This document shows, one piece after another, positions 21,774 through 56,580 of a DNA stretch of 64,000 nt. A program made the position numbers and the translations under genes. Position 1 is the stretch's first letter. The number at the start of each line of letters is the position of its first letter. This DNA is from an uncultured Bacteroidota bacterium (GTDB taxonomy: Bacteria > Bacteroidota > Bacteroidia > Flavobacteriales > Flavobacteriaceae), in NCBI GenBank assembly GCA_902605445.1, contig CACLCL010000005.1:1-64000 (forward strand), in the 5' to 3' direction. The notes under the pieces are model-generated. The model worked only from the letters and a program-made list of their open reading frames with translations, did no database searches and was not told the origin of the DNA.

Positions 21774-22109
21774 CTAACCGCCAACACGTTTAACATTATA
21801 ACCTTCATTCTTAAGAAAATTCATAATTTCCTTTCGATTGTTACCTTGTATTATTATTGAATATTGTTTAACAGAACCCCCAACAGATAAAACTTGCTTA
21901 ATTTTCCTCGCTAAAGATTTAATTTGATGATTATTTATATTTTCAAATCCTTCGATAATTGTGTTAGGTCTTCCATTTCTTTTTTCGTATTTACAAATAA
22001 GAGGGGAGGACTGTTTATTTTTAATTGGGGATTTTTTATTATCAGAATTAGATATTTCTGAAAATTTGTGATTGGGGAAAATATTTCTTAATTGATCTTT
22101 TAAATCCAT
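21774..22109 (-). CDS. SUI1/YciH family translation initiation factor homologue
   Basis: This 111-residue protein resembles bacterial YciH, a homologue of eukaryotic eIF1. The conserved C-terminal domain runs from KRNGRPNTIIEGFE through LARKIKQVLSVGGSVK and ends with KNEGYNVKRVGG, similar to the usual G-x-x-V-K-R-x-G-G terminus. The first 35 residues are polar and variable. YciH influences start-codon choice in initiation, so its presence is notable in a genome using several TTG starts and possibly leaderless messages, though no link is shown here. Its start overlaps the last base of the upstream oxygenase gene. Confidence 0.9.
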   Translation of the reverse strand: MDLKDQLRNIFPNHKFSEISNSDNKKSPIKNKQSSPLICKYEKRNGRPNTIIEGFENINNHQIKSLARKIKQVLSVGGSVKQYSIIIQGNNRKEIMNFLKNEGYNVKRVGG

Positions 22110-31606: not shown

Positions 31607-32701
31607 TTAATTTTTTTCGATGTAAATGGATCTAGATGGGAATGCAAATTCACATTTATGTTTGTTTACAATTTCAATTATACTAAAATTAATTTTCTCC
31701 TGAGTATCAATTAGTACTTCCCAATCCGGGCTATCTACATAATACAAAACCATAATATCTAATGAACTTGGACCAAAATTTAAGAATTTTACTTTACCAT
31801 CTTGGTTTGTCATCTCATGCCTATCAACTAGTATCTGTATATCATTTACTATTGCTTTAATTTTTTCAATTGATGTGTCATAAGTTAGTCCGATGTTGAA
31901 CTTAACTCTCCTTACTGGTCTAGCGCCTAAATTATCCAATTCACTACTTATAATATTTTTGTTTGGAACCGTCACTATACTTTTATCAAAAGTTCTTATT
32001 CTGGTACTTCTGAAACCTACTTTTTCAACAATTCCAGTAACACCACCAAGAGTGACGATATCTCCAACAGTGAAGGGTTTATCAAAAAAGATAGTAAATG
32101 AACCTAATAGGTTTTCAAGACTTTCCTTTGATGCTAGCGCGAACGCAACACCACCAATACCCAAACCCGTTACTAGTGCGGTAATATTTACATCAAAAAC
32201 ATTTCCTAGTATCATCACAATACCTAAAACTATTGTAAGTACTTTGGCAATGTCTATAGCAAAAGGTATTAATTGATCATCGACTTTACTTTCGGTTTCC
32301 AAAGCTCTGTTCTTAAGCTTATATCCAAAAAAATCAATAGCTCTATTTATTGTCCAGAAAATAGTTATCAAGATAAAGAGGTTAAAAGCTTTTGATATAT
32401 AAATTGATATATCAACACTATCTTCAGAGGATAAATAGTCTGGTAGATTAATAAACTTGGAGGAAAAATAAACAACAACTAAAAATAAAAAATATCGTAT
32501 AGGTTTTTTAAGTAATAAATCAAATTTAATATTATCATTTCCAGATTCATCTTTAGCAAAAAAATTAAATAATAATTTGGTTATAAATAATCTTAATGGA
32601 TTAGTGATAAGTAAACCTAAAATCAGAGAAACTAAAAAATATAGATAATTAATTATTTTATTACCAAAGAAATCAATATTTAAAATCTCAAAAAAATCCA
32701 T
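31607..32701 (-). CDS. MscS-type mechanosensitive ion channel
   Basis: MscS channels open on membrane tension to release solutes on osmotic downshock. The 364-residue protein has about four membrane segments in the first 190 residues and the pore-lining TM3 plus beta-domain signature ITALVTGLGIGGVAFALASKESLENLLGSFTIFFDKPF, followed by VGDIVTLGGVTGIVEKVGFRSTRIRTFD. The C-terminal alpha/beta domain ends with FAFPSRSIYIEKN. It heads a minus-strand unit with DUF1800 and DUF1501. A TATTTTTG -7 box lies 10 nt before its ATG. Confidence 0.94.
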   Translation of the reverse strand: MDFFEILNIDFFGNKIINYLYFLVSLILGLLITNPLRLFITKLLFNFFAKDESGNDNIKFDLLLKKPIRYFLFLVVVYFSSKFINLPDYLSSEDSVDISIYISKAFNLFILITIFWTINRAIDFFGYKLKNRALETESKVDDQLIPFAIDIAKVLTIVLGIVMILGNVFDVNITALVTGLGIGGVAFALASKESLENLLGSFTIFFDKPFTVGDIVTLGGVTGIVEKVGFRSTRIRTFDKSIVTVPNKNIISSELDNLGARPVRRVKFNIGLTYDTSIEKIKAIVNDIQILVDRHEMTNQDGKVKFLNFGPSSLDIMVLYYVDSPDWEVLIDTQEKINFSIIEIVNKHKCEFAFPSRSIYIEKN

Positions 32702-32711
32702 AATTATAGAC

Positions 32712-32719
32712 CAAAAATA
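32712..32719 (-). promoter_or_regulatory. Bacteroidota -7 box before mscS
   Basis: On the minus strand the bases read TATTTTTG, a TAnnTTTG match, 10 nt before the ATG of mscS. A leader of about 5 nt is predicted. No -33 element was identified. Confidence 0.5.
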
Positions 32720-35057: not shown

Positions 35058-35933
35058 CTATTTATTATAAATTTCTAACACTTTTTTTCCAATCTCTGCT
35101 GGTGAATCAACAACATGAATACCTGAGAGATTTAGAATTCTCTTTTTAGCTTGTGCTGTGTCATCAGAACCTCCAACAATGGCCCCAGCATGTCCCATAG
35201 TTCTGCCTGCAGGGGCTGTTTCTCCTGCGATAAAACCAATAACAGGTTTTGTAGACTTAGACTCCTTATACCATTTTGCAGCATCAGCCTCTAATTGACC
35301 CCCAATCTCTCCTATTAAAACAATAATTTCAGTTTCAGAGTCATTAATAAAAAGTTTTAATGCATCTTTTACCGTTGTACCTATAATTGGATCACCACCA
35401 ATGCCAATCGCTGTTGAAATCCCTAACCCTTGTTTTACAACTTGATCAGCAGCTTCATAGGTTAAGGTTCCAGATTTAGAAATTACTCCAACAGAACCTT
35501 TTTTGAATATAAAACCTGGCATTATACCAACTTTTGCTTCTTCAGGCGATATAACACCTGGGCAATTAGGCCCTATTAAAATAACATCCTTTCCCTCAAT
35601 ATGGTTTTTAACTTTAATCATATCACTAATTGGGATACCTTCAGTAATCGCAATTATAACTTTAATGCCAGCTTCAGTAGCCTCAATAATTGCACTAGCT
35701 GCAAAAGCAGGTGGAACAAAAATAATGCTTGTATTTGCATCAGTATTTAAAATAGCTTCATTTACAGTATTAAAAACAGGTAATCCTAAATGCATTTGAC
35801 CACCTTTTTTAGGAGTTACACCACCAACTAAGTTTGTACCATACTCAATCATTTTTTCCGAGTGAAAAGAGCCTTCACGACCAGTAAAACCTTGAACAAT
35901 TATTTTTGAATTTTTATCAACTAATACACTCAT
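35058..35933 (-). CDS. sucD: Succinate-CoA ligase, alpha subunit
   Basis: SucD carries the phosphohistidine of succinyl-CoA synthetase in the citric acid cycle. The 291-residue protein has the CoA-binding [41 protein letters not shown], and the active-site histidine in [15 protein letters not shown]. The beta subunit SucC is not in the window, so the two subunits are encoded apart. Its ATG shares one base with the stop of efp (TAATG), so translation is likely coupled. Confidence 0.95.
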
Positions 35934-36499
35934 TATTCTTTAAATCTTTCTTTATAATTTCCTTTTTCAGTATCAACTTTAATTTTATCTCCCTCGTTAA
36001 TAAATAATGGTACATTTACAATTGCACCAGTTTCTAATGTCGCTGGTTTTGTTGCGTTTGTTGCAGTATTTCCCTTAACCCCAGGCTCTGTAGAAACAAC
36101 CTCTAAAATAACATTGGGTGGCATTTCTACAGAAAGAGGTATTCCTGTTTCAGAATTTGTAACGACTGTGACAATTTCACCCTCTTTCATTAATTGAGGG
36201 TTATCAAGAAATTTTTCCTCAATTGAAATTTGGTTATAATCATCAGTATTCATGAAATGATAAGTTGTAGAATCGTTGTATAAGTATTGATATTTGTTAG
36301 TTTCAACTCTTACTTTATCAATCTTATGACCCGCAGAAAAGGTATTATCAACAACTTTTCCATTAGTCAAACTTTTTAATTTTGTCCTAACAAAAGCAGG
36401 ACCTTTTCCAGGTTTAACGTGTAAAAACTCAATAATTTTATAAATATCATTATTAAATTTAATACATAATCCATTTTTTATTTCAGCAGTAGTGCTCAT
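35933..36499 (-). CDS. efp: Elongation factor P
   Basis: EF-P rescues ribosomes stalled at polyproline stretches. The 188-residue protein has three expected beta-barrel domains and the loop [16 protein letters not shown] whose tip residue is lysine in this case (PGKG), as in the EpmA-type or other lysine-modified EF-Ps rather than the arginine type. No modification enzyme is encoded nearby. It lies 1 nt after lpxA and overlaps sucD by one base. Confidence 0.96.
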
Positions 36500-36500
36500 A

Positions 36501-37286
36501 TTAATTTGATTTTGTATAGCCTTTCATTATACCTCTCTGGGAATTTTTAATAAACATCAAAATTTCATCTCTTTCATCGGAAACTTCCATCTCAGCTTCA
36601 ATTATTTCACAAGCTTGAGAATTATTGTAATTCCTTTGATATAATAATCTATATATATTTTGAATTTCTTTAATTTTTTCAGACGAATATCCCCTTCTTC
36701 TCAAACCTACTGAGTTTATACCCACATATGAAAGTGGCTCTCTTGCAGCTTTTACGTAAGGTGGGACATCCTTTCGAACAAGTGAACCTCCTGTCACAAA
36801 GGCGTGATCACCAATTTTACAAAACTGATGTATAGCGGTTAGTCCGGAAATAATTACATAATTACCAACTGACACATGTCCTGCCAATGTAGTATTATTT
36901 GAAAAAATACAATTATCTCCAACAATACAATCATGGGCAATGTGAGAATATGCCATTATTAAGCAATTATCTCCAATCACAGTTTTTTCTCTGTCATTAG
37001 TGCCTTTATTAATTGTTACGCATTCTCTTATTGTTACATTATTACCAATTTCAACAAAAGTTCTTTCATTATTATATTTTAAATCTTGAGGATTTGCAGA
37101 AATTACAGCTCCAGGGAAAATATTGCAATTCTTACCAATTCTTGCACCGTCCATTATAGAAACATTTGAACCGATCCAGGTACCCTCCCCAATGGTTACA
37201 TCACCATCAATTGATGTAAAAGGATCTATGACAACATTTTTTGCAATTTTTGCATTTTGGTGTATATATGCTAAAGGTTGTTTCAT
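36501..37286 (-). CDS. lpxA: UDP-N-acetylglucosamine acyltransferase
   Basis: LpxA transfers a hydroxyacyl chain to UDP-GlcNAc in the first step of lipid A synthesis. The 261-residue protein has the left-handed beta-helix hexapeptide repeats (IGEGTWIGSNVSI, IGNNVTIRECVTINKGT), the catalytic-histidine segment IMAYSHIAHDCIVGDN and the C-terminal helical domain (VGLRRRGYSSEKIKEIQNIYR). It follows lpxC-fabZ by 1 nt in a classical lipid A cluster. Confidence 0.96.
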   Translation of the reverse strand: MKQPLAYIHQNAKIAKNVVIDPFTSIDGDVTIGEGTWIGSNVSIMDGARIGKNCNIFPGAVISANPQDLKYNNERTFVEIGNNVTIRECVTINKGTNDREKTVIGDNCLIMAYSHIAHDCIVGDNCIFSNNTTLAGHVSVGNYVIISGLTAIHQFCKIGDHAFVTGGSLVRKDVPPYVKAAREPLSYVGINSVGLRRRGYSSEKIKEIQNIYRLLYQRNYNNSQACEIIEAEMEVSDERDEILMFIKNSQRGIMKGYTKSN

Positions 37287-37287
37287 A

Positions 37288-38691
37288 TTACTTTACTTTT
37301 ATTATTTGTGCAGTTAATTCAGCTTCAGCACACAGTTTTCCATTTGCATATGCTAATCCCTGCATATGACAAATTCCTCTTCTGAAAGGTCCAATCAAAA
37401 AGCATCTAAATATTATTGTATCTCCAGGTAAAATTTTATTTCTAAATCTTACTTTATCCATTTTAGCAAAAAATGTAAGATAGTTTTGCGGATCATCTAG
37501 CTTAGACATTACCAATATTCCACCCATTTGAGCCATTGCTTCAATAATTAAAACACCTGGCATTACAGGAAAGTCAGGGAAATGACCTTTAAAAAAGTCT
37601 TCATCAATTGTTACATTTTTGACACCAACAACATGGTTTTCACTTAACTCATATATTTTATCAACAAATAAAAATGGAGGCCTGTGGGGTAAAATTTCCA
37701 TAATTTTTGTGCTATCCATCAAAGGCTTACTTGAAAAATTAATATCAGGAATATCATTCATTTTAGAGTTTTTAATAACGTCTTTCATCTTTTTTGAAAA
37801 TTGTGTGTTTACATAATGTCCAGGCTTATTAGCAATAACCTTTCCTCTTATTTTAGTTCCAATCAAAGCTAAATCTCCTATCACATCCAATAGTTTATGT
37901 CTAGCAGCTTCATTAGGATAATGAAGATTTAAATTGTCAAGAATACCATTTGATTTAACCTTGATTTTATCTTTATTAAAAGCTTTTCTTAATTTTTCCA
38001 TTGTTGGTTTTGATAATGGTTTATCAACATAAACAATTGCGTTGTTTAAATCACCACCTTTTATAAGTCCTTTGTTGAGTAGCATTTCAATTTCATGAAG
38101 AAAACTAAAAGTTCTGCATTTTGAAATATCGTTTTTGAAGTCACTTATAGATTCAATTGAAGCATTTTGTGTCCCAAGAATCTTTGTTCCAAAGTCCACC
38201 ATAGTGGTTAACTTATAATTTTCTGAAGGAATAACTGTAATATCGCTTCCACTCTTTTCATCTTTGAAAGAAATGACTTTGTTTACAACATATTCCTTTC
38301 TCTTCTTATTTAATTTTTTTATACCTGCTTTTTCCAATGCCTCAACAAAATACTTAGAAGAACCATCCATGATTGGAGGTTCAGAAGCATTTAACTTAAT
38401 TAAAACATTATCAATTTCTAAACCTACCAGTGATGCTAAAACATGTTCACAAGTTTGGATAATGACATTATCATTTTTAAGGCAAGTTCCTCTGTCGGTA
38501 CTTGAAACATAACCTATATCAGCCTTAATTGTTGGTTGACCATCTAAATCTGTTCTTTTAAAAATGTAACCAGTATTTGCTTCAGAAGGACTAAATGTTA
38601 AATCTACTTCTTTACCAGTGTGTAAACCAACTCCCTTTAAAGAAACCTCTTTAGAAATTGTTGTCTGATTATGCTTAGTTTCAATTATCAT
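37288..38691 (-). CDS. lpxC-fabZ: Bifunctional LpxC deacetylase / FabZ dehydratase
   Basis: This 467-residue fusion combines LpxC (about 1-310), the zinc deacetylase of lipid A synthesis, with FabZ (about 325-467), the 3-hydroxyacyl-ACP dehydratase. The LpxC part shows SLKGVGLHTGKEVDL, IQTCEHVLASLVGLEIDN, the zinc region AARHKLLDVIGDLALIG and IRGKVIANKPGH. The FabZ part shows LPHRPPFLFVDKI and the catalytic HFPDFPVMPGVLIIEAMAQ. Fusion of the two is a hallmark of Bacteroidota and joins enzymes that compete for the same acyl pool. It overlaps lpxD by 4 nt. Confidence 0.97.
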   Translation of the reverse strand: MIIETKHNQTTISKEVSLKGVGLHTGKEVDLTFSPSEANTGYIFKRTDLDGQPTIKADIGYVSSTDRGTCLKNDNVIIQTCEHVLASLVGLEIDNVLIKLNASEPPIMDGSSKYFVEALEKAGIKKLNKKRKEYVVNKVISFKDEKSGSDITVIPSENYKLTTMVDFGTKILGTQNASIESISDFKNDISKCRTFSFLHEIEMLLNKGLIKGGDLNNAIVYVDKPLSKPTMEKLRKAFNKDKIKVKSNGILDNLNLHYPNEAARHKLLDVIGDLALIGTKIRGKVIANKPGHYVNTQFSKKMKDVIKNSKMNDIPDINFSSKPLMDSTKIMEILPHRPPFLFVDKIYELSENHVVGVKNVTIDEDFFKGHFPDFPVMPGVLIIEAMAQMGGILVMSKLDDPQNYLTFFAKMDKVRFRNKILPGDTIIFRCFLIGPFRRGICHMQGLAYANGKLCAEAELTAQIIKVK

Positions 38692-39701
38692 TTACCTTTT
38701 TTAAAATTAAGATCTTTAATCACCTTTTCAAAGTTTTTAAATAAAACATATGATCGATTAAAATTTCTTTCGTCAATTGCTGGTGTACCTTTTATTATTG
38801 AATCGTCCGGGATATTACTAAAAACACCTGCTTGACCATTAATTCTAACATTATCACCAACCTTTAAGTGACCAACGAAACCAACCTGACCTCCAATTTG
38901 ACAATTTTTACCTATAACAGTAGATCCTGCGATTCCGGCCTGACCAGCTATTACGGTGTTTTTTCCAATTTTTACATTATGTGCAACCTGAACTAAGTTG
39001 TCAATTTTAACACCTTCATCAATAAATGTGGAACCTAAAGTTGCTCTATCGATAGAACAGTTTGAACCAATTTCTACATTGCTTTTGATATGAACATTAC
39101 CAATTTGTGGAGTTTTTATGTAAATACCATTACCGTCAGGAGCATATCCGAATCCATCAGATCCTATTACAGAATTAGAATGTATTATACATTCGTTTTC
39201 TATTATAGAGTCTTCATAAATTCTAACTCCTGAATGAATAACACAGTTATCTCCTATTGTTACATTAGATTTAATCGAAACATTATCCATTATAAATACA
39301 TTATTACCTATTTTACATCTTGAATCAATTGTTGTAAACTTTCCAATAGAAACATCCTTTCCAACTACAGTTGATTTGTCAACTGATGATAATTTATGAA
39401 TTCCTGTAAATTCTAATTTTTTTTTAGAAATGAGATTTAATAATTTGTTAAAAGATGAGTATGCATTTTCAACTACTAAAAGATTGGGGGTGTCTTTTGC
39501 TTTGTAATCTATACCCCTATCTACAATTACAACTGAAGCTTTAGTCTTGTAAAGCCAATGGATATATTTAGGATTAGATAAAAAAGTGATATCCCCCTCA
39601 ATCGCATCTTCAATTTTTGACAAATTGTATAGAGTAACTTTTTCATTACCTATAATTTCACCATCTAATATTTTAGCTAGTTTATTAATGGATATTTTCA
39701 T
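38688..39701 (-). CDS. lpxD: UDP-3-O-acylglucosamine N-acyltransferase
   Basis: LpxD adds the second acyl chain to UDP-3-O-acyl-glucosamine. It is about 337 residues with an N-terminal uridine-binding domain (DGEIIGNEKVTLYNLSKIEDAIEGDITFLSNPKY), hexapeptide repeats and the catalytic region VQVAHNVKIGKNTVIAGQAGIAGS. The ORF track begins at a TTG three codons upstream; I prefer the ATG at 39701 (MKISINKL). A TAATTTTG -7 box ends 6 nt before that ATG, so the message may be leaderless. It heads the seven-gene minus-strand run ending at the terminator. Confidence 0.95.
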   Translation of the reverse strand: MKISINKLAKILDGEIIGNEKVTLYNLSKIEDAIEGDITFLSNPKYIHWLYKTKASVVIVDRGIDYKAKDTPNLLVVENAYSSFNKLLNLISKKKLEFTGIHKLSSVDKSTVVGKDVSIGKFTTIDSRCKIGNNVFIMDNVSIKSNVTIGDNCVIHSGVRIYEDSIIENECIIHSNSVIGSDGFGYAPDGNGIYIKTPQIGNVHIKSNVEIGSNCSIDRATLGSTFIDEGVKIDNLVQVAHNVKIGKNTVIAGQAGIAGSTVIGKNCQIGGQVGFVGHLKVGDNVRINGQAGVFSNIPDDSIIKGTPAIDERNFNRSYVLFKNFEKVIKDLNFKKGK

Positions 39702-39707
39702 AGACGG

Positions 39708-39715
39708 CAAAATTA
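39708..39715 (-). promoter_or_regulatory. Bacteroidota -7 box before lpxD
   Basis: TAATTTTG matches the Bacteroidota -7 consensus TAnnTTTG. It ends 6 nt before the preferred ATG of lpxD and overlaps the TTG start in the ORF track, which argues for the ATG. A clear -33 TTG element is not seen at the usual spacing. Confidence 0.5.
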
Positions 39716-45200: not shown

Positions 45201-45216
45201 GTTTACATTTGTAAAC
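45201..45216. promoter_or_regulatory. Palindromic operator-like site overlapping a -7 box
   Basis: GTTTACA-TT-TGTAAAC is a perfect inverted repeat (7-bp arms, 2-nt spacer) ending one base before the ATG of the HTH gene. The consensus -7 box TACATTTG (45204-45211) lies inside it and would place the transcription start at or near the ATG. The arrangement fits autorepression by a dimeric HTH protein, which is an inference. Confidence 0.55.
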
Positions 45217-45510
45217 ATGAGTGTAATAAAGAGAATTGAATCTTTTATAAAAAGTAAGAAACTAAGCAAATCTAAGTTTGCAAATGAAATTGGAGTACAA
45301 AGATCTTCTCTAGCCCACTTTTTTAGCGGAAGGAATAAACCTAGCGTGGATTTCTATTTAAAAATCAAAGACAAATACCCTGATGTTGATTTAAATTGGT
45401 TAATTTCAGGAAAAGAAATGAAAAAAAGTCAAAACAAAGAGTTTGATAATTCAAATGAAATTGAATCTGTATTAATACTTTACAAAAATGGCACATATAA
45501 AAAGGCTTAG
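45217..45510 (+). CDS. XRE-like helix-turn-helix regulator
   Basis: From the ATG at 45217 the protein has 97 residues. It starts MSVIKRIESFIKSKKLSKSKFANEIGVQRSSLAHFFSGRNKPSVDFYLKI in an XRE/Cro-type helix-turn-helix, followed by DLNWLISGKE and a C-terminal strand-like tail IESVLILYKNGTYKK. The TTG six codons upstream in the ORF track is less likely because the palindromic site and -7 box lie there. This regulator family is common in flavobacteria; targets are unknown. Its end overlaps the start of the lipoprotein gene by 23 nt. Confidence 0.85.
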   Translation: MSVIKRIESFIKSKKLSKSKFANEIGVQRSSLAHFFSGRNKPSVDFYLKIKDKYPDVDLNWLISGKEMKKSQNKEFDNSNEIESVLILYKNGTYKKA

Positions 45511-50427: not shown

Positions 50428-51522
50428 CTAAACATTGAATAAGAAGTGAATAATATCTCCATCTTTTACAATGTAACTTTTTCCCTCCGCTTTAACTTTT
50501 CCCGCCTCTTTTACCTTAAATTCAGATTTAAATTCTATGTAATCTTTGTAAGAAATAACTTCGGCTTTGATAAAACCTTTTTCAAAATCGGAGTGAATAA
50601 CACCTGCAGCCTGTGGAGCTGTAGCCATTTTTGGAATAGTCCAAGCACGTAATTCTTTTGGTCCAGCAGTAAAGAAAGTATGTAAATCAAGCAAATCGTA
50701 TGTGGCATTAATGAGTTTTGTAGAACCTGGCTCGCTAAGACCAATATCATCTAAAAAGACTCTTCTTTCCTCAAAATCATCTAACTCATTAATTTCAGAT
50801 TCAATCCCGGCAGCTAATGTAATAAAATTAGCACCTTCATTTTGTATTATTTTAACAACTGATTCAACGTAGTTGTTGGATGAGATAACACTCTTTTCAT
50901 CAACATTACACACATATAGTACAGGTTTAGCAGTAATTAATTGGAGTGGTTTTAAATACTTTTCAAAACTTTTTTTATCTAAATTAGCTGACCTTATATT
51001 TTTTGATGTATTTATAGTTTCAATTGCAAGCTCTAAAGCAAGTTTTTCTTTTTCAGCATCTTTATTTCCAGATTTGGCAGTTCTGCTAATCTTTTCAAGT
51101 CTTTTATTTAAGGTTTCTAAGTCTTTTAATTGGAGTTCTATATCTATTATTTCCTTGTCTCTGACAGGATTTACAGAACCATCAACATGAGTAACATTAT
51201 CATTGTCAAAGCATCTAAGAACATGTATAATTGCGTCTGTTTCTCTAATATTGGCAAGAAATTTATTTCCTAATCCCTCACCTCTACTTGCACCTTTAAC
51301 TAAACCAGCAATATCTACTATTTCGACAGTGGCAGGTATAACTTTTTCAGGCTTAACTATATCCTCTAAATCAACCAGTCTAGAATCGGGTACATTAATG
51401 ATACTGTGATTTGGTTCAATTGTACAAAAAGGAAAATTTGCACTCTGAGCCCTTGTATTTGAAAGGCAATTAAACAGAGTTGACTTACCTACATTTGGTA
51501 ATCCTACAATTCCAGCTTTCAT
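50428..51522 (-). CDS. ychF: Redox-regulated ribosome-binding ATPase YchF
   Basis: YchF is an Obg-related P-loop ATPase that binds ribosomes and takes part in stress responses and selection of leaderless or otherwise unusual initiation. The 364-residue protein begins MKAGIVGLPNVGKSTLFNCL (Walker A) and has DIAGLVKGASRGEGLGNKFL, the NxxE-type motif in place of NKxD (LYVCNVDEKS), a coiled coil near residues 150-200, and the C-terminal TGS domain (HTFFTAGPKELRAWTIPKMATAPQAAGVIHSDFEKGFIKAEV). It lies 2 nt after the ferredoxin gene. Confidence 0.96.
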   Translation of the reverse strand: MKAGIVGLPNVGKSTLFNCLSNTRAQSANFPFCTIEPNHSIINVPDSRLVDLEDIVKPEKVIPATVEIVDIAGLVKGASRGEGLGNKFLANIRETDAIIHVLRCFDNDNVTHVDGSVNPVRDKEIIDIELQLKDLETLNKRLEKISRTAKSGNKDAEKEKLALELAIETINTSKNIRSANLDKKSFEKYLKPLQLITAKPVLYVCNVDEKSVISSNNYVESVVKIIQNEGANFITLAAGIESEINELDDFEERRVFLDDIGLSEPGSTKLINATYDLLDLHTFFTAGPKELRAWTIPKMATAPQAAGVIHSDFEKGFIKAEVISYKDYIEFKSEFKVKEAGKVKAEGKSYIVKDGDIIHFLFNV

Positions 51523-55055: not shown

Positions 55056-55352
55056 TTGTTTAAAAATTTTAAAAATAAGTGGGGAATAGATTCTGACTTT
55101 CAGTTATTAAAAATATTTATTGTTTTTGGAATAACTGGATCAACAGCTGCGTGGATTTCCGATCCCTTGTGTAATTACCTGGGTATAAGTGTTACAAATT
55201 TTAATATTTCTTTATATTGGTTAATAAGATTATTATTAATTACCCTAGTGTATCAAATTTTACTAATAATAATTGCATTTATTTTCGGAGAATTAAAATT
55301 TTTTAGACGTTTTGTAAATAAATTTTTACGATTAATCGGATTTAAAATTTAA
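55056..55352 (+). CDS. DUF6787-like small membrane protein
   Basis: This 98-residue protein has two hydrophobic segments (about 17-42 and 52-80) with the conserved pattern FIVFGITGSTAAWISDPLCNYLG and LIIIAFIFGELKFFRRFVNKFLRLIGFK. It matches my recollection of the DUF6787 family, sometimes mislabelled as prolipoprotein diacylglyceryl transferase. Function is unknown. The start is TTG, 1 nt after the serA stop; its stop overlaps the convergent msrA gene by 4 nt in TTAA. Confidence 0.78.
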   Translation: MFKNFKNKWGIDSDFQLLKIFIVFGITGSTAAWISDPLCNYLGISVTNFNISLYWLIRLLLITLVYQILLIIIAFIFGELKFFRRFVNKFLRLIGFKI

Positions 55353-55891
55353 TTGTTTTTTAAGTTTTTTTTATACATCCCCTCAAATTTTCTAACTTTT
55401 GGTAATATTACAACCTTACAATAAGGTTGATTTTCATTGTTCTCAAAATAATCACTGTGATAATCCTCTGCCTTGTAAAAAGTATTGAATTTTAATAATT
55501 CTGTTACAATTTTACTTTGGTAACAACCTGATTTATTTAGTTCATAAATAAATTTTTCCGCTATTTTTTTTTCGTTATTATCGGAATAAAAAACAATTGA
55601 CCGATAGTGTGGTCCAACATCATTACCTTGTCTGTTAATGGTTGTAGGGTCATGAGTTTTAAAAAATATTTCAAGAAGAAAATGAAAATCAATTTTTTCT
55701 GAATTATAAATTATTTCAATTGTTTCAGCATGACCAGAATCACCTCTACAGACCTCTTCATATGTTGGATCTTTTGTTAATCCACCACTATAACCAGGGT
55801 TAACATTTAAAACATATTTTAGTCTATTAAAAATTGCCTCAGTACACCAAAAACATCCTCCGGCAAAATAAGCTTTCTTGATTGTTGACAT
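55349..55891 (-). CDS. msrA: Peptide-methionine (S)-S-oxide reductase
   Basis: MsrA reduces the S-epimer of methionine sulfoxide in proteins. The 180-residue protein begins MSTIKKAYFAGGCFWCTEAIF with the catalytic cysteine C13 (GCFWC); PGYSGGLTKDPTYEEVCRGDSGHAETIEI and FFKTHDPTTINRQGNDVGPHYRS are family motifs. There is no fused MsrB domain and no signal peptide. It is divergent from the LolD-like gene with a 29-nt spacer. Confidence 0.96.
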   Translation of the reverse strand: MSTIKKAYFAGGCFWCTEAIFNRLKYVLNVNPGYSGGLTKDPTYEEVCRGDSGHAETIEIIYNSEKIDFHFLLEIFFKTHDPTTINRQGNDVGPHYRSIVFYSDNNEKKIAEKFIYELNKSGCYQSKIVTELLKFNTFYKAEDYHSDYFENNENQPYCKVVILPKVRKFEGMYKKNLKNN

Positions 55892-55908
55892 AAATAAATT
55901 TATTGTCT

Positions 55909-55916
55909 TATTTTTG
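55909..55916 (+). promoter_or_regulatory. Bacteroidota -7 box before the LolD-like gene
   Basis: TATTTTTG matches TAnnTTTG and is followed by only 4 nt (ATTT) before the ATG. A TTG at 55885-55887 sits 21 nt upstream and could serve as the -33 element. Transcription would begin at or next to the start codon. Confidence 0.55.
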
Positions 55917-55920
55917 ATTT

Positions 55921-56580
55921 ATGATTACAGCCAAAAATATACATAAATTCTATGGAAATCAACACATTCTCAAAGGAATAAATTTAGATGTAAAAAAGGG
56001 TGAAATCGTGAGCTTAGTTGGCTCATCTGGCGCTGGGAAAACTACTCTATTACAAATCTTAGGGACTATAGACAAATTTGACAAAAATGATAAGTCCTCT
56101 TTGAAATTATGTGGTAGAGATATCTTTAAGCTTAACGATAATTCATTAGCAGATTTTAGAAATAATGAAATTGGTTTTATATTTCAATTTCATCAGTTAC
56201 TTCCAGAATTTACTCTTATTGAAAATATTTGCCTTCCTGCTTACATAAAAAAAATAAAAAAAAGTATTGCTGAAGAAAAAGCAATGGAGTTGATAAATTA
56301 TTTGAATTTAGAAAAAATAATACATAATAAACCGAATGAATTATCAGGTGGTGAAAAACAAAGAGCAGCTGTTGCAAGAGCATTGATTAATAAACCCAGC
56401 ATAATATTAGCTGATGAACCCTCAGGAAATTTAGATAGTAAATCTGCAGAAAATCTTTACAAATTATTTTTTAAACTTAGAGAAGATTTTAACTACACTT
56501 TCTTGATTGCTACTCATAACACTAATTATGCAAAAAAATCTGACAGAGTCTTTGAAATAATTGATGGTAAAATAAATTGA
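55921..56580 (+). CDS. LolD-like ABC transporter ATP-binding protein
   Basis: The 219-residue protein is an ABC ATPase of the LolD/MacB group, which powers lipoprotein release (LolCDE) or related mechanotransmission export. Walker A is GSSGAGKTT (about 35-43), the signature is LSGGEKQRAAVARAL, and Walker B is IILADEPSGNLD; the D-loop and H-loop follow (IATHN). No permease gene is next to it, so its partner is encoded elsewhere. It overlaps the downstream TIGR02757-type gene by 4 nt (TTGA). Confidence 0.9.
   Translation: MITAKNIHKFYGNQHILKGINLDVKKGEIVSLVGSSGAGKTTLLQILGTIDKFDKNDKSSLKLCGRDIFKLNDNSLADFRNNEIGFIFQFHQLLPEFTLIENICLPAYIKKIKKSIAEEKAMELINYLNLEKIIHNKPNELSGGEKQRAAVARALINKPSIILADEPSGNLDSKSAENLYKLFFKLREDFNYTFLIATHNTNYAKKSDRVFEIIDGKIN

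Follow-up and report, generated by a model that had tools for sequence, protein, structure and literature searches.

When a promoter box ends only a few nucleotides before a start codon, the question arises whether the mRNA has any 5' leader at all, and how its translation would then be initiated. An initial annotation had noted TAnnTTTG boxes of this kind 6, 5, 4 and 10 nt before the ATG of lpxD, an HTH gene, a lolD-like gene and mscS, respectively, and we found all four at these sites. They lie in a stretch of 64,000 nucleotides (the window; G000:C5) with a GC content of 29%, which belongs to the assembly (1.02 Mb, 68% complete) of a streamlined flavobacterium. From the name of a near relative, the uncultured Bacteroidetes MAG AG-337-I03, we infer that the genus is marine.

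Boxes at lpxD and the lolD-like gene

All four boxes fit TAHHTTTG, the -7 box of the Bacteroidota sigma-A (ABfr). The TAnnTTTG motif was found 112 times in the window, compared with 122 occurrences expected from shuffled sequences, and an enrichment based on motif counts alone was therefore rejected. Because the motif is not enriched across the window, a bare match means little, and only its position and its conservation can serve as evidence. Genome-wide, the bipartite pattern TTG-N17-21-TAnnTTTG was present 218 times, versus 110 times for the reversed pattern. No Rfam families were found in the window.

The lpxD gene (38688..39701, minus strand; LpxD, PF04613), which is predicted to be leaderless, is the first gene of an lpxD-lpxC/fabZ-lpxA-efp run. 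Its -7 box TAATTTTG (39708..39715, minus strand) ends 6 nt before the ATG at 39701. With the 4-5 nt that separate box and transcription start in F. johnsoniae (PMC6847099), transcription is predicted to begin in the last bases of the 6-nt spacer (39702..39707, minus strand) or at the A of the ATG. A -33 element (TTG/TTTG, located about 20 nt before the -7 box) was not clear at lpxD at the usual spacing; this element is weak in F. johnsoniae as well (PMC6847099). The region 35058-39701 contains lpxD, an lpxC/fabZ fusion, lpxA, efp and a CoA-ligase-like gene on one strand, with gaps of 1-2 nt or overlaps between them. As a result of this tight arrangement, only the first cistron would be translated from a leaderless start, and efp and the other genes would depend on internal initiation.

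The lolD-like gene (55921..56580, plus strand), also predicted to be leaderless, encodes an ABC ATPase that is called LolD-like because its best NCBIfam model, TIGR02211 (LolD), matched with a score below the cut-off. Its -7 box TATTTTTG (55909..55916, plus strand) ends 4 nt before the ATG at 55921, and a -33 element is present as a TTG at 55885-55887, 21 nt upstream of the box. The divergent neighbor is an msrA-like gene (55349-55891). In the region 55892-55962, the only consensus box for this msrA-like gene (55932-55939, minus strand) is situated within the coding part of the lolD-like gene, at a distance of 40 nt from the msrA-like ATG; it is kept at 40-43 nt in 6 of the 14 same-genus loci that were read.

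Conservation of box and gap

After alignment of the orthologues at the protein level, the distance between box and start codon (the gap) was read from their upstream regions. Among the same-genus sequences, which are related to one another, the lpxD gap was 5-6 nt in 14 of 15 cases, with the window copy and AG-337-I03 counted in, and the 15th sequence has TAATTTTA in place of the box. For the lolD-like gene, a gap of 4-6 nt was found in all 15 same-genus sequences. Two genes outside the window behaved in the same way, that is, trpS with a gap of 4-5 nt (19/19) and glyS with a gap of 4 nt (16/16). Beyond the genus, 16 lpxD sequences from other genera and families (45-50% protein identity) were compared; eleven had a gap of 5-6 nt, three had a gap of 18-30 nt, and two lacked a box. 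The flanks of lpxD in other genera were unrelated in sequence. For glyS, the gap was 5 nt in one other genus, and the single trpS copy read from other genera (G047) had no box.

The start codons are secure, because the N-termini align and most orthologues have no alternative upstream in-frame ATG. All orthologues of the lolD-like gene, trpS and glyS start with ATG, as do those of lpxD except for two distant copies with long gaps. When this genome was compared with the same-genus genome G007, the gap was kept within 1 nt at all five leaderless-type genes, versus only 2 of 10 leadered genes that were boxed in both genomes (Fisher P 0.007). This difference indicates that the distance matters at leaderless-type genes and drifts elsewhere. 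Orthologues of lpxD, the lolD-like gene, trpS and glyS, but not those of mscS, thus share a conserved promoter element that lies right in front of the start codon. For lpxD and the lolD-like gene, the initial prediction of mRNAs with no or nearly no leader is well supported by the conserved box, the conserved gap and the secure start codon.

The same layout is probably present at thiL-like, endonuclease and plsC-like genes elsewhere in the genome. The divergent trpS/plsC region (L208; G000:C1:45335-45384) comprises only 50 bp and contains two opposed boxes, 4 nt from the trpS start and 6 nt from the plsC start. In the genus, plsC orthologues mostly start with GTG at an unchanged gap, and the third position of the plsC box TAGTTTTG is a G, which the refined consensus excludes. 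For these two reasons plsC was regarded as an unclear case and set aside.

The boxes of mscS and the HTH gene

The other two boxes gave different results. The gene for the mscS-type mechanosensitive channel (31607..32701, minus strand; MscS, PF00924) is preceded by TATTTTTG (32712..32719, minus strand), 10 nt before the ATG at 32701. In orthologues the gap drifted (10, 12, 12, 12, 16 or 19 nt, or no nearby box). The proposal that mscS is leaderless was rejected on these grounds; the predicted leader has 5-6 nt here, as would be expected for a short-leader promoter.

The box TACATTTG (45204..45211, plus strand) ends 5 nt before the ATG at 45217 of a gene for a 97-aa HTH_3 protein (45217..45510, plus strand; PF01381). 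It lies in the central part of a perfect palindrome, GTTTACATTTGTAAAC (45201..45216), which directly adjoins the ATG and is the probable operator of the HTH protein. The palindrome was identical in 16 of 16 same-genus HTH orthologues, surrounded by scrambled flanks and upstream sequence. Within the genus, each genome has about one copy when a single mismatch is allowed, and near-copies in other genera were adjoined by an HTH homologue in 5 of 8 loci. The simplest reading is that GTTTACATTTGTAAAC would act as an autoregulatory operator that overlaps the promoter and touches the start codon.

For this gene it is quite possible that the match is a mere piece of the operator palindrome and that the promoter lies elsewhere. 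GTTTACATTTGTAAAC contains TACATTTG by construction, and all 16 bp of the palindrome are invariant, which is more than a -7 box needs. In other genera, the palindromes of HTH homologues lie about -216 to -267 from the ATG (for example at about -216 or -243), often with further copies at -24 to -41 (about -24 or -41), so that the ATG is not touched. In addition, a second box with a gap of 15 nt precedes the HTH gene in three same-genus genomes. Against this, no other consensus box precedes most of the same-genus copies, and 14 of the 16 copies have a gap of 5 nt and the remaining two a gap of 7 nt. One copy has a GTG start. The earlier claim of a leaderless HTH mRNA is thus plausible but ambiguous, the box being part of a probable operator.

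Two or more palindrome copies, often about 200 bp apart, were present at HTH homologues of other genera, which suggests that a two-operator autoregulator was reduced to one site in this genus. At the loci L261 and L264, operator copies separate the HTH homologue from a divergently oriented peptidase-like gene (sequence MHGNESTTTKA), hinting that the peptidase-like gene is a target of the regulator in other genera.

Position of the box before start codons

The position of the box was also surveyed beyond individual genes. Stretches of 400 kb (401 kb for this genome, 208 kb for one relative) were taken from this genome and five relatives, genes were called with a simple home-made script, and only the exact consensus TAHHTTTG was scored. 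The census covered ATG starts with a divergent upstream neighbor, and expectations were obtained by column shuffling. In these small samples, a box was present within 100 nt at 43 of 106 such starts in this genome and at 45 of 85 in G007. Seven starts of this genome had a gap of 4-6 nt, compared with 0.5 expected (Poisson P about 1e-6), and five starts in G007, compared with 0.2 expected, representing an excess over column shuffles of about 14-fold and 25-fold, respectively. A second, larger cluster of boxes was centred on a gap of 15-19 nt.

In F. johnsoniae transcripts start 4-5 nt after the box (PMC6847099), and in F. psychrophilum the box is located at -12 to -5 (PMC9723704). With this distance of 4-5 nt, which is borrowed from species of a different genus, a gap of 4-6 nt corresponds to a leader of 0-2 nt. 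At divergently preceded ATG codons, no boxes with a gap of 0-3 nt were found in the samples of this genome and G007. Such a sharp lower edge at 4 nt is what a fixed start distance of 4-5 nt would require, since with any shorter gap the transcript would begin within the codon.

Promoter use and translation initiation

Taken together, it is very likely that the boxes of lpxD and the lolD-like gene function as -7 elements and give rise to leaderless mRNAs, and that this layout is conserved at trpS and glyS. The housekeeping sigma factor of Bacteroidota (sigma-A, ABfr type) would use the boxes of lpxD and the lolD-like gene as -7 elements. From the gap and the borrowed distance we infer 5' ends that coincide with the start codon or precede it by 1-2 nt, with RNA polymerase starting 4-5 nt past the box. 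Translation would then begin by direct recognition of the AUG at the 5' end, most probably by a 70S ribosome that carries initiator tRNA (PMC9031893).

Leaderless-type genes may have additional upstream promoters. That the boxes are real and yet a second upstream promoter or read-through yields the main, leadered mRNA is unlikely. Several start sites per gene are frequent in bacteria, and read-through could operate at lpxD in other genera, where the sequence upstream of several loci resembles the end of a same-strand gene. In this genome, however, lpxD is divergent from its neighbor, and the intergenic space at the lolD-like gene (29 bp) and at trpS/plsC (50 bp) has no other consensus box in the same direction.

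It is very improbable that the box near the ATG is a translation signal in an mRNA leader instead of a promoter. The bases before the start codon do tune translation in F. johnsoniae (PMC6847099), but operon-internal starts, which would be equally in need of such a signal, showed no box peak at either of the two distances. Even less credible is the view that an 8-mer with six fixed, mostly A/T positions falls next to starts by accident in a genome of 29% GC, because, although the window holds only as many matches as shuffled sequence, both the excess at gaps of 4-6 nt and the conservation of box and gap amid scrambled flanks speak against it; conservation refutes a chance match at lpxD, the lolD-like gene, trpS and glyS, and at mscS chance may account for the box.

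Shine-Dalgarno motifs, SUI1 and YchF

A clear excess of Shine-Dalgarno motifs over shuffles was not observed before the genes of any sampled genome, in agreement with the lack of Shine-Dalgarno use that is general in the phylum (PMC6847099, PMC3155529). A 16S rRNA gene was sought in the assembly for its anti-Shine-Dalgarno tail and none was present. The earlier statement that these mRNAs would have no ribosome-binding site is thus true, but it is uninformative, since the sampled genomes have no clear Shine-Dalgarno excess anyway.

As had been noted, the window encodes both a SUI1/YciH-like protein (21774..22109, minus strand) and YchF (50428..51522, minus strand), which the initial annotation had connected with atypical initiation. 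We found no link of either gene to the leaderless layout. Of 60 relatives, 50 encode SUI1, and G034 and G053, which have long leaders, are among them; SUI1 was therefore rejected as a marker of leaderless genomes. YchF, which is described as universally conserved, acts as an inhibitor of leaderless translation in E. coli (PMC8138138). No weight is given to the presence of the two genes in the window.

Leader length and genome compactness

In the same small samples of home-made gene calls, the median gap was 18 nt in the genus (a leader of about 13-14 nt), compared with 35.5 nt pooled over G034, G047 and G053 (Mann-Whitney P 4e-7). A gap of 6 nt or less was found at 12 of 88 box-bearing starts in the genus versus 1 of 74 in these three genomes (P 0.004), and leaders of up to 10 nt are predicted for about 27% of the box-bearing starts in the genus. 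The coding density, also from home-made gene calls, was 0.93-0.94 in the genus and 0.84-0.87 in G034, G047 and G053. G024, a compact relative of 1.9 Mb, was intermediate with a median gap of 21.5 nt (12 starts). Because G047 also has 1.9 Mb, leader shortening tracks compact intergenic space and not genome size alone.

For comparison, F. psychrophilum has a median leader of 24 nt and 5.5% leaderless mRNAs among those mapped (PMC9723704), F. johnsoniae has a mean leader of 33 nt with about 13% of leaders of 10 nt or less (PMC6847099), and in B. thetaiotaomicron 3.7% of the leaders are under 10 nt (PMC7366714). The leaderless layout would thus be unusually frequent here for its phylum, and it probably represents the extreme of a shortening of 5' leaders that runs through the genus alongside compact intergenic space. 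Tentatively, the promoter-to-start distance would be compressed throughout this streamlined genus, with a leaderless share of 10-15% of the boxed primary starts, and an essential core of lpxD, the lolD-like gene, trpS and glyS would be kept leaderless because this serves regulation, for instance through differential translation when the supply of free 70S ribosomes or of initiator tRNA changes in starvation.

Discussion

Flavobacteria were already known to have leaderless mRNAs; what appears to be new is the compression of leaders and the conservation at named essential genes. The sigma factor box TAnnTTTG and the lack of Shine-Dalgarno motifs are shared with the leaderless mRNAs of F. psychrophilum and F. 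johnsoniae (PMC9723704, PMC6847099). In contrast to Flavobacterium, the present case is a prediction from sequence alone, the predicted leaderless share is higher (the 12/88 given above), and conservation was found at named genes. In Deinococcus-Thermus, a -10 box that adjoins the ORF likewise leads to leaderless mRNAs, is conserved among orthologues and keeps a minimum distance (PMC12340547). That system differs in its phylum, its box (TANNNT), the number of genes concerned (about one third, compared with a minority here) and the fact that it was tested with reporters (PMC12340547). The route proposed here, 70S initiation at a 5'-terminal AUG, is known mainly from E. coli model mRNAs and from bacteria such as mycobacteria and Deinococcus (PMC9031893), and in the literature on leaderless initiation we found no test of it in Bacteroidota.

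Large in-silico surveys of leaderless genes searched for a Pribnow-like box and, by their own statement, may undercount Bacteroidetes (PMC3160421). With the phylum's own box, predicted leaderless genes emerge as a clear class that has a sharply defined distance limit and is conserved at essential genes of uncultured marine bacteria. The simple rule of a box 4-6 nt before the ATG can be used to check gene starts, and genes are named at which leaderless translation can be tested in a phylum that lacks Shine-Dalgarno motifs.
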